Source: Clostridia bacterium
GTDB taxonomy: Bacteria > Bacillota > Clostridia > Christensenellales > UBA1242
Direction of reading: 5' to 3'
Length of the DNA stretch: 48,540 nucleotides
Assembly (NCBI GenBank): GCA_017621525.1
Contig: JAGASX010000005.1
Span: 1-48,540, forward strand
Part shown: in pieces, positions 7,441 to 11,054 of the stretch
Numbering within the stretch: position 1 is the stretch's first letter
How the letters are laid out: each line of letters starts with the position of its first letter
Notes under the pieces: model-generated
What the model saw: the letters and a program-made list of their open reading frames with translations, nothing else
Databases searched by the model: none
Told to the model about the DNA's origin: nothing
Position numbers and translations under genes: made by a program

Positions 7441-8172
7441 TTAAATAATAGGCTCAAAATGTTCAAAAATCACATTATCGCAATATTTCACAACTTTCAC
7501 ATATTCGCTTTGGCTTTTCACCGTCCAAGCCAAAAGTGGAAGAGTTTTATATTTTTTCACAAATCGGTTTGGCAGACGGCTTGCCTCATAGCAAATAAAG
7601 TGAGGACGAGAAACCTTTTTATTGAAAATCATGCGTTTAAGCCCATACTTTTTAAAGTGAGGCAACTTTTGTCCGCAGAAATAACCAGATATTTGCCCAC
7701 GCAAAATGTTTGGTGCGTGTTTGTAAAAATATTCAAGCACATAAGGGTTAAGCGATGCAACTGCAACTTCGCCTTTATATTCCTTTAAAATTTCAATCAC
7801 GCCTTTTTCAAAGTTTCCAACCTTGTCAAGGTTTTTAATTTCAATCAAAACAGGCACTCTGCCGTCGATAAAGTTTAAAGCCTCTTGCAGGGTAGGTATT
7901 TTTTCCTTACTACCTGAAAGGTGCAAAAGGTCAAGGTCGCTTTTGTTTAAAAATTTTAAATAGCCGTCATTGTCTGTAAGACGAGAAAGGCTGTCGTCAT
8001 CAAACACTACAATTGTGCCGTCGGCAATCATTTGCACATTAAGTGCAATTGGGTAACCGCAGTCAATTGCTTTGCCAAAAGCCGACAAAGAGTTTTCTGG
8101 GTGTGCTTTGTCATAGATGCCCTTGCTTGCAATTGGCTCTTCCACCAGCCAAGAGTTGAAAAGATTATCCAT
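7441..8172 (-). CDS. Glycerophosphodiester phosphodiesterase-like protein, catalytic residues replaced
   Basis: A 243-residue protein with the GDPD TIM-barrel pattern (PENSLSAF, then GYPIALNVQ, VVFDDD, a VLIEIK strand and a late LLAWTV strand). In active enzymes the equivalent motifs read HRG, E-x-D and HD. Here the first His-Arg is Ser16-Lys17, the metal ligands Glu and Asp are Ala43 and Asn45, and the second His is Asp58. The fold markers remain while every key residue at the active site up to residue 60 is changed, so a pseudoenzyme is likely. The start at 8172 is chosen from GAGGT 5 nt upstream. No signal peptide: cytoplasmic. Possible promoter on the minus strand: extended -10 TGT-TACAAT at 8238-8243. 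Confidence 0.85.
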   Translation of the reverse strand: MDNLFNSWLVEEPIASKGIYDKAHPENSLSAFGKAIDCGYPIALNVQMIADGTIVVFDDDSLSRLTDNDGYLKFLNKSDLDLLHLSGSKEKIPTLQEALNFIDGRVPVLIEIKNLDKVGNFEKGVIEILKEYKGEVAVASLNPYVLEYFYKHAPNILRGQISGYFCGQKLPHFKKYGLKRMIFNKKVSRPHFICYEASRLPNRFVKKYKTLPLLAWTVKSQSEYVKVVKYCDNVIFEHFEPII

Positions 8173-8298: not shown

Positions 8299-9132
8299 TT
8301 ATTCGGCCTCTTTTTCATACAAATCTGGCATTTTTTCCTTTATAAGTTTATCATCTTCAATGTCAATGCCCATATTTTTATAATAATTTGCATAATATTC
8401 TTGCAATTCTGGTATGTATTCGCAAAGTTCCATAATAAGTTTTTCATCAATGCCGGTTTCTTTTTCGTAATTTTTCTTAGGCAACGACAAAACGCGATAA
8501 TCCAATTCTTTGCTTATTCTTGCCCTTGCATAAACCCGCCTTTCATCCATAAGAATACAGCCGGTTGTAACATATTGCCGTTTGTTTAACCCCATAGATT
8601 CGCAAAGTGCCATACGCTCACTTATTTTATTTGCTGGCAAACATAAAACCGCCGGCTTTTTTAAAATTGCCTTGTTTGAAACCCCAATTTTGTGCAGAAA
8701 AACAATTTTTTTCATATTTGCAATTGGTTTGGTACTTAAAACAGAAGGGCAGGAAATTATAAGCCGTTTGGCGTCTTTTGGTGATAAATGCAAGGCTTTG
8801 CCATATATTTTCATTTTGTGTGTTATGTTTTGCGTAGAGTATGTTACAACGCGTGGCTGACGGATTAACAGCCTGCCAAATTCCTCTTTTGAAAATCCAA
8901 ATTGCCCGGAAAAGAAAAGATATTTTTGTTTGATTGCCTCTTGTGAATATGTAAGAAAAACAGATGTTCTGTTCATCATATTTTTTATGTTTTTAGGCTG
9001 AATATTATATTCATTGCACAAAAAATCCACTTTATTTTCCAAAGATTTTGCACTTCTTAAACCAATACTTTTAACAAGTTCCTCAATTTGTTCCTCAGTA
9101 AAATTTAATGTACCTTTCAAAACATCTTTCAT
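8299..9132 (-). CDS. mTERF-like helical repeat protein
   Basis: A 277-residue protein built from about five repeats of about 33-36 residues. Each has the pattern helix, FL/YG, helix starting G/L-S-x-x-E/D, then a P-x-V-L/V motif: FGFSKEEFGRLLIRQPRVV, LHLSPKDAKRLIISCPSVL and GVSNKAILKKPAVL are successive units. This is the signature of mTERF repeats, known from mitochondrial and plastid nucleic-acid-binding proteins. No signal peptide or membrane segment. The start at 9132 follows GAGGG, rather than an upstream TTG. It has its own consensus promoter, divergent from lepA. A nucleic-acid-binding role is inferred from the fold pattern only. Confidence 0.75.
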   Translation of the reverse strand: MKDVLKGTLNFTEEQIEELVKSIGLRSAKSLENKVDFLCNEYNIQPKNIKNMMNRTSVFLTYSQEAIKQKYLFFSGQFGFSKEEFGRLLIRQPRVVTYSTQNITHKMKIYGKALHLSPKDAKRLIISCPSVLSTKPIANMKKIVFLHKIGVSNKAILKKPAVLCLPANKISERMALCESMGLNKRQYVTTGCILMDERRVYARARISKELDYRVLSLPKKNYEKETGIDEKLIMELCEYIPELQEYYANYYKNMGIDIEDDKLIKEKMPDLYEKEAE

Positions 9133-9155: not shown

Positions 9156-9184
9156 AGTATACAATGCCCGCACCTTTTTGTCAA
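9156..9184 (-). promoter_or_regulatory. Promoter of the mTERF-like gene
   Basis: Minus strand: TTGACA (9179-9184), a 17-nt spacer and TATACT (9156-9161). A near-consensus sigma-A promoter about 24 nt before the ATG. Confidence 0.8.
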
Positions 9185-9248: not shown

Positions 9249-11054
9249 ATGAAAAGAATAGACAAAATAAGAAATTTTTGCATAGTTGCACACATAGACC
9301 ACGGCAAATCCACACTTGCCGACAGATTGATTGAAAAAACCGGCACTCTTGCCAAACGCGATATGCAAGCGCAACTTTTGGATAGTATGGAACTTGAAAG
9401 GGAAAAGGGCATAACCATAAAACTTACCCCAACAAGAATGAACTATACCTACAACGGAGAAGAATATCAACTAAACCTTATCGATACACCGGGACACGTG
9501 GACTTCACTTATGAAGTTTCACGTTCTCTTGCCGCCTGCGAGGGTGCTATTTTAATAGTTGACGCCTCACAAGGGGTAGAGGCTCAAACGCTTGCCAATG
9601 CATACCTTGCAATTGATAATAATTTGGATATTTTGCCTGTTGTAAACAAAATAGACCTGCCGTCCGCACGCCCAGAAGAGGTAAAAAAAGAGGTTGAGGA
9701 CGTAGTAGGTATTCCTGCCATGCACGCACCATGCATTTCTGCCAAAGAGGGCACAAATATAGAACAAGTTTTAGAGATGATTGTTAAAGAGTTTCCAGCC
9801 CCAAAAGGTGATGAAAACGGCAAACTCAAATGCCTTATTTTCGACAGTTATTATGACAATTTTAAGGGGGCAATCTGCCTTATCCGCGTTTTTGACGGAA
9901 GCGTTAAGGTTGGCGATAAAATAAAAATGTTCCAAACAGGCAAGGTGTATGAAGTTACCGAAGTGGGCATTTTTGTACCTCATGAAAAGTCAACAGGCGT
10001 GCTTCTTGCCGGTGATGTTGGATACCTTGCAGGCTCAATAAAAAACATAAGCGACATTGCAGTTGGCGACACAATCACAAACGCACTCGACCCAATTGAT
10101 GCCCCACTTGCAGGGTATAAAAAGGTACAACCGGTTGTATTTTGTGGTATTTTCCCGGTTGACGGTGCCAAATATAATGAACTGAAAGACAGCCTTGAAA
10201 AACTTAAACTCAATGACGCATCACTTGAATTTTCGCCAGAAGTTTCACAGGCACTTGGCTTTGGTTTTAGATGTGGTTTTTTGGGACTTTTGCACCTTGA
10301 AATCATCACAGAACGCCTTGAAAGAGAATTTAATCTTGACCTTATCACCACAGCACCAAGCGTATTTTACCGCGTGCATAAAACAGACGGAAACGTTATT
10401 GAACTTTCAAACCCTTCATCACTTCCACCGGTTGTTGAAATTTCCAAAATTGAAGAGCCATTTGTTAAAGCAAGCATTTTCACACCACCAGAGTATGTTG
10501 GCGCAATTATGGAACTTGCACAAGAAAAAAGAGGCGTTTATAAAGACCTTACCTACCTTGACGCGGGCAGAGTGCGTTTAAATTATATCTTGCCATTGGG
10601 CGAAATAATTTATGACTTTTTCGACAGCCTTAAATCTCGCACACGCGGATATGCAAGTTTTGATTATGAAATGGCAGACTATGCAGAAAGCGAACTTGTA
10701 AGGGTGGATATCCTGCTTAATGGTGAAAAATGCGATGCCCTTTCAATCATAGTTCATAAAGATAAGGCGTACGCAAGGGGTAGGGCTCTTACCGAAAAAC
10801 TTAAAAAAATAATTCCTCGCCAACTTTTTGAAGTGCCAATTCAAGCGGCAATAGGCGGTAAAATCATTGCACGCGAAACTGTGTCGGCAATGAGAAAGGA
10901 CGTACTTGCCAAATGCTATGGCGGTGATATAACCAGAAAAAGAAAACTGCTTGAAAAACAGAAAGAGGGTAAAAAACGTATGCGTAAAATTGGCTCGGTT
11001 GAAATTCCGTCCGAGGCGTTTATGTCAATCCTTAAATTGGATGATGAGGGCTGA
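9249..11054 (+). CDS. lepA: Elongation factor 4 (LepA)
   Basis: A 601-residue translational GTPase that acts on ribosomes during elongation and 30S biogenesis. G1 is [10 protein letters not shown]2 region REKGITIK, G3 DTPGH, G4 NKID. The C-terminal LepA-specific domain ends in the expected [22 protein letters not shown]-region basic segment. Length is typical. The start MKRIDKIRN at 9249 matches family N-termini. hemW begins 1 nt after the stop, so the two are co-transcribed; the lepA-hemW pair is conserved in many Bacillota. Confidence 0.97.

Follow-up and report, generated by a model that had tools for sequence, protein, structure and literature searches.

An mTERF-type repeat protein encoded divergently from lepA in a small-genome Clostridia bacterium

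Introduction

A 48,540-nucleotide stretch from the very small genome of a bacterium in an uncultured gut lineage of Clostridia (assembly GCA_017621525.1, contig JAGASX010000005.1), hereafter the window, encodes a 277-residue protein that is a genuine member of the mTERF superfamily and is colinear with MTERF3 and MTERF1 to the C-terminus. Gene expression in organelles depends on mTERFs as core regulators, and these were long believed to be confined to mitochondria and chloroplasts; organelle targeting is usual in the eukaryotic members and lies outside the Pfam definition of the family. An earlier note on this DNA had recognized an mTERF-like repeat protein in a bacterium, had regarded mTERFs as mainly eukaryotic organelle factors, and had proposed a search against PF02536, a comparison with human MTERF1 and MTERF3, structure prediction and a survey of clostridial homologs, all of which are reported here. 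The bacterial homolog stands: neither of the two outcomes that the note had named as refuting it, an unrelated predicted fold or no profile similarity to mTERF above other solenoid families, was obtained. One point needs correcting, as bacterial mTERF-like proteins with demonstrated DNA binding (pTERF, from Clostridia MAGs) were already described in 2024 (PMC11417379).

Family membership

8299..9132, minus strand: mTERF-type protein of 277 aa, complete reading frame with its stop codon (PF02536, E = 8.3e-15; fold match to MTERF4, MTERF3 and MTERF1, Z 13-15)

The reading frame runs on the minus strand from an ATG at 9132 to a stop at 8299, with 277 intact codons. In a Pfam-A search, PF02536 (mTERF) matches the protein with E = 8.3e-15 and 54.9 bits against a gathering score of 23.1; it is the sole family at E <= 1, with no TALE match at that threshold. 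One ortholog from the same locus reaches 140.6 bits. Matches in PADLOC (the best being Csx20, E 0.003) and PHROGs were rejected as marginal.

Searched against the PDB, the single protein finds human MTERF3 (1.7e-8), MTERF1 (about 0.002), ciliate mS93 (0.06) and MTERF4 (0.2), and residues 28-181 align colinearly with residues 73-226 of the MTERF3 chain. A profile of 17 bacterial relatives, in which no eukaryotic sequence was included, sharpens this picture to 1.1e-20 (77 bits) for MTERF3, 1.4e-18 for MTERF1, 1.6e-17 for mS93 and 1.3e-8 for MTERF4, and its positions 213-367 align up to the C-terminal end of MTERF1. The top non-mTERF protein in the same search is a designed toroid (2e-6, 30 bits, against 77-66 bits for the mTERFs), and MTERF3 and MTERF1 lie about 40 bits above every other solenoid. 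That the protein might be an unrelated helical solenoid merely resembling an mTERF is therefore hardly credible and already contradicted: weak matches do include designed toroids and TALEs, but mTERFs lead by at least 40 bits in sequence and at least 6 Z units in fold, and the colinear alignment extends into the mTERF C-terminal unit. With a repeat HMM, the best of 1000 shuffles of the protein gives E of about 0.1 and the real protein 8e-49; because this HMM contained the window's own repeats, the Pfam and PDB results constitute the independent evidence.

Repeat architecture and predicted structure

9034..9132, minus strand: N-terminal cap or degenerate first repeat, residues 1-33 (repeat HMM 8.6 bits, weak; two helices in the model)
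8926..9033, minus strand: 36-aa mTERF repeat, residues 34-69, with Ser for the anchor Pro and Arg at P-2 (repeat HMM 21.3 bits)
8818..8925, minus strand: 36-aa mTERF repeat, residues 70-105, RQPRVV, with Arg at P-2 and P+1 (repeat HMM 24.5 bits)
8710..8817, minus strand: 36-aa mTERF repeat, residues 106-141, SCPSVL (repeat HMM 22.8 bits)
8617..8709, minus strand: shortened last unit, residues 142-172, ILKKPAVLCLPANKISER (aligns with the C-terminal units of MTERF3 and MTERF1; kept in bacterial orthologs)

The repeat period is exactly 36 residues, with units starting at 34, 70 and 106, a degenerate unit before them and a shortened one after. Thus, the window protein has three clear and two degenerate units, compared with 4-10 units in its relatives, in which nearly all units carry the anchor proline. 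The earlier description of units of about 35 residues with a P-x-V-[LV] motif holds for the repeats and in part for the motif, which three of the four units carry (PRVV, PSVL, PAVL); the first unit lacks the proline. The repeat part is basic (pI 9.8).

AlphaFold2, run with 8 sequences, models the window protein at a pLDDT of 79.7 and a pTM of 0.73; the model is confident at residues 21-180 and poor over the C-terminal 60 residues (pLDDT about 60). Each modeled unit consists of a long helix, a 10-residue helix and a 5-residue helix, and the model indicates that these units, in which the conserved proline usually caps the central helix, build a superhelix of the mTERF type, in keeping with the alternating helices noticed earlier. 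In a fold search, the model matches MTERF4 (Z 15.4), MTERF3 (Z 15.2) and DNA-bound MTERF1 (Z 13.8) over 217-234 residues; TALE chains, the next family, lie well below the mTERFs at Z 7.7 or less. A second species encodes at this locus a 10-unit ortholog of 440 aa (L088), whose model has a pLDDT of 90.9; its alignment to DNA-bound MTERF1 covers residues 73-396 of the latter and reaches Z 21.5.

A conserved C-terminal module

8317..8598, minus strand: conserved bacterial C-terminal module with the motif DERRVYAR (profile A6, 3.5e-26, the window's own module being 1 of the 13 rows)

After the last unit follow about 95 residues that are conserved in bacteria. This module opens with S-E-K-K-x-[YW]-A-R and later carries E-K-x-F...K-Y-G...L...K-Y-P-L; it has no match in Pfam and no significant match in the PDB. 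Of 112 genomes, 19 have a match to its profile, and in almost every case module and repeats share one ORF, the exceptions being a contig-edge fragment (G080) and a frame-broken copy (G115). The module also occurs in two further families within the class (L079/L080 and L081). As side observations, the arrays of these families (L081:9865-11370 and L079:7723-10377) have a different repeat consensus and end in the same kind of C-terminal module as the members from the genus. In the profile alignment, the module start K-K-x-[YW]-A-R coincides with S-K-K-R387-Y-E-A-K of MTERF1, and DERRVYAR of the window protein has an arginine at the position of R387, a residue that binds a guanine in MTERF1 (PMC4705650).

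Candidate base-reading positions

When MTERF1 is anchored on the unit proline, its base-contact residues (PMC4705650) fall at P-2 (R162), P+1 (R202, F243 and R350) and P+4 (F322), and R251 falls at P+9. Near-identical repeats occur in four independent groups of arrays; when a single array is taken from each group, variability among the 36 positions is highest at P-2 and P+1. Among random position triples, 0.3% reach the variability of P-2, P+1 and P+4, and for all five mapped positions the corresponding share is 3.6%, so that the p-value ranges from 0.003 to 0.036 with the MTERF1 residues counted. This coincidence of variable and base-contact positions is suggestive. The units of the window protein carry R, R, S and K at P-2 and V, R, S and A at P+1.

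Such arrays resemble TALEs in being built of helical units of about 34-36 residues and in having near-identical repeats that vary at few positions. They differ in repeat sequence, apparently in fold (TALE chains reach at most Z 7.7) and in where they vary, which is at residues 12-13 in TALEs and at positions flanking a proline in the bacterial mTERFs. It is conceivable, albeit doubtful, that the bacterial mTERFs form a modular DNA-reading system parallel to TALEs: units would read through P-2, P+1 and also P+4, the bacteria-specific module with K/R-x-[YW]-A-R would anchor the array end or a partner, and arrays would quickly change target, or disappear, from one species of small-genome gut Clostridia to another.

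Locus and neighboring genes

9156..9184, minus strand: promoter-like site TTGACA-17-TATACT (11 of 12 consensus positions; putative)
9249..11054, plus strand: lepA, the divergent neighbor, which defines the locus (gene order)
7441..8172, minus strand: GDPD-like gene, the other fixed neighbor, codirectional with the mTERF gene (five usual catalytic residues replaced)

Both the near-consensus promoter and the divergent position to lepA claimed in the earlier note are found. The putative promoter, at 9184-9156 on the minus strand, is the best of 7 promoter-like sites, with 5.5 expected from shuffles, and lepA starts at 9249 on the plus strand, facing away from the mTERF ATG at 9132.

On the other side, the GDPD-like protein has lost all five catalytic-position residues that are invariant in at least 41 relatives (HR to SK, E.D to A.N, H to D) and retains about 70% identity over 240 residues. 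Judged by these replacements, it is likely a catalytically dead pseudoenzyme specific to the window's genome.

The loci of relatives were fetched with organism names through the neighboring GDPD, because the mTERF profile (A1) offers no conserved stretch for scanning; the fetched relatives are MAGs of uncultured Clostridia from the gut, with deer and samples labeled 'Lapin' among the sources. The arrangement GDPD-mTERF<>lepA is common to seven species (the window, L088, L089, L095, L107, L122 and L125), with two tandem mTERF copies in L125 and a 170-aa remnant in L122. The other 30 of 37 species have lepA and GDPD without an mTERF gene between them, or a different gene order. On a LepA tree, mTERF presence requires five changes, four of them forced by well supported branches, a count that by itself does not separate gain from loss. 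Since site and orientation are identical across species, one ancestral gene with repeated loss is more likely than repeated insertion.

Divergence of the mTERF gene

The mTERF proteins at this locus change far faster than their neighbors. Between L088 and L089, LepA is 98%, GDPD 96% and mTERF 54% identical at similar synonymous divergence, and dN/dS (Nei-Gojobori; rough, with dS near 1) is 0.018, 0.040 and 0.346, respectively. Across species other than that of the window, the range is 0.30-0.37 for mTERF and 0.02-0.08 for the neighbors. Identity between the window protein and its positional orthologs is as low as 18-25%. Within the repeats the conserved positions are the structural ones, such as the proline with 0.92 identity between orthologs.

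Rates of this kind also fit a window copy that descends from an ancestral regulator, decays under nearly neutral change and is heading for loss, as happened in most of the genus. The short array with one unit lacking proline, the presence or absence of the gene changing at least 4-5 times over the LepA tree, the remnant in L122 and an adjacent GDPD devoid of catalytic residues in the same genome point the same way. However, the frame is intact over 277 codons, the promoter-like site agrees with the consensus at 11 of 12 positions, the C-terminal motif and arginines of the DNA-contact type are retained, the model is confident over residues 21-180, and dN/dS among relatives is clearly below 1. 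We consider decay unlikely.

Distribution

The survey of clostridial homologs reveals a patchy distribution. Within the genus, PF02536 matches at E <= 1e-3 in 26 of 112 genomes, which is an upper bound as some long ORFs (800-900 aa) match weakly and are doubtful, and above the Pfam cut-off in 19. Across the class, 7 of 391 genomes (4 of 222 genera) have a match, and among relatives around one of these the number is 6 of 55; in the phylum it is 3 of 398, two of them marginal. One of the doubtful long ORFs of the genus (L074 in G085) scores 29.7 bits to PF02536 as a stretch and has no mTERF match as a whole protein. A scan of genome contigs with the single window protein found no relative because this protein is too divergent for a pattern search. 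Searches of phage records, plasmid records and viral contigs for mTERF relatives were likewise empty and thus indicate no mobile or viral carrier.

The window's genome (925 kb, 99% complete) carries a second mTERF of 397 aa. This protein (G000:C9:2861-4054, locus L008) has six canonical units and the C-terminal module, and its gene sits between an LTA-synthase-like gene and pcrA. A further locus recurs in the genus (L059, L062, L065, L067-L070 and L073). There, an mTERF array of near-identical repeats is followed by an overlapping ORF of about 120 aa that is weakly mTERF-like (PF02536 18 bits, below the cut-off), near an N-acetylmuramoyl-L-alanine-amidase-like gene. In L068, L069 and L070 the first four repeats are nearly identical and the later repeats and copy number differ, which looks like repeat shuffling.

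Proposed function

Of the readings weighed here, the most likely is that the window protein binds DNA at specific sequences and serves there as a transcription regulator or roadblock, and we hold this to be probable. Like MTERF1, the superhelix would wrap double-stranded DNA by way of the major groove, and bases would be read by the side chains beside the conserved proline (P-2, P+1 and P+4) and also by the basic residue of the C-terminal motif; so bound, the protein would regulate or block transcription in a sequence-specific manner. Array length and the residues at the reading positions would set the target, and fast protein change would retarget it between species. With about five units, the window version would read a shorter site than 10-unit orthologs. 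For the window protein, this reading would transfer the activity of pTERF1 by family membership and not by sequence alignment. pTERF1 comes from a rumen Clostridia MAG and binds DNA with a Kd of 1.87 nM (PMC11417379).

Alternatively, the superhelix might bind rRNA or a partner enzyme and act on RNA or ribosomes in ribosome assembly or translation, which appears unlikely. MTERF4-NSUN4 and ciliate mS93 act on RNA or ribosomes and LepA is a translation factor; by structure, MTERF4 ranks first for the window model in a tie with MTERF3, by sequence, mS93 is one of the closest matches, and the locus adjoins lepA. However, lepA is transcribed divergently, and other bacterial members lie at unrelated loci. 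Since mTERF is absent from the lepA-GDPD site in 30 of 37 species, the cells can do without the protein, which sets it apart from ribosome assembly factors. Moreover, the closest match of the longer ortholog (L088) is MTERF1 in its DNA-bound form, and pTERFs are reported to bind double-stranded DNA (PMC11417379). Binding to DNA in the control of transcription hence remains the preferred reading.

Comparison with known systems

The pTERF paper is the only work found in the literature on bacterial mTERF-like proteins. It describes prokaryotic mTERF-like proteins from MAGs, mostly of Bacillota, with nM DNA affinity and differing motifs (Hu et al. 2024; PMC11417379). The window protein shares with them mTERF-type tandem repeats, three-helix units in AlphaFold models and an origin in bacterial MAGs, and its unit count lies within the 3-11 units given for pTERFs (PMC11417379). 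pTERF1 is described there as having no canonical Pro/Leu features and no obvious sequence similarity to eukaryotic mTERFs (PMC11417379). In contrast, the window family keeps the proline and is recognized by Pfam and by human MTERF3 and MTERF1, a comparison that takes pTERF1 by its description. The C-terminal module, the locus and divergence rates are not mentioned in the available text of the pTERF paper (PMC11417379). Because it keeps the proline and is directly recognizable, the window family bridges eukaryotic mTERFs and pTERF1 as described.

Among the eukaryotic members, human MTERF1, a mitochondrial transcription terminator (DNA complex 3MVA), shares the unit and superhelix and has corresponding base-contact positions. 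It differs in being organellar, in its 33-residue units compared with 36 in bacteria and in lacking the bacterial C-terminal module, and identity is 14-17%. Human MTERF3 and MTERF4 act in mitochondrial transcription and in rRNA-ribosome assembly, respectively; MTERF3 is the best sequence match and MTERF4 the best fold match of the window protein. Unlike the situation of MTERF4, no NSUN4-like partner gene adjoins the window gene.

Significance

The mTERF family exists in bacteria, where it is patchily distributed and fast-evolving. New here are the old GDPD-mTERF<>lepA locus, the extreme divergence of its protein (54% identity where LepA has 98%), the conserved C-terminal module of about 95 aa and the suggestive correspondence of the most variable array positions, P-2 and P+1, to base-contact positions of MTERF1. 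These observations raise the question why gut bacteria with genomes of about 1 Mb keep a fast-evolving repeat regulator. As the bacterial members are recognizable by human sequences and lie at a datable locus, the origin of mTERFs becomes testable by phylogeny. Furthermore, bacterial mTERFs offer small proteins for working out the rules of DNA recognition, with concrete candidate specificity positions.
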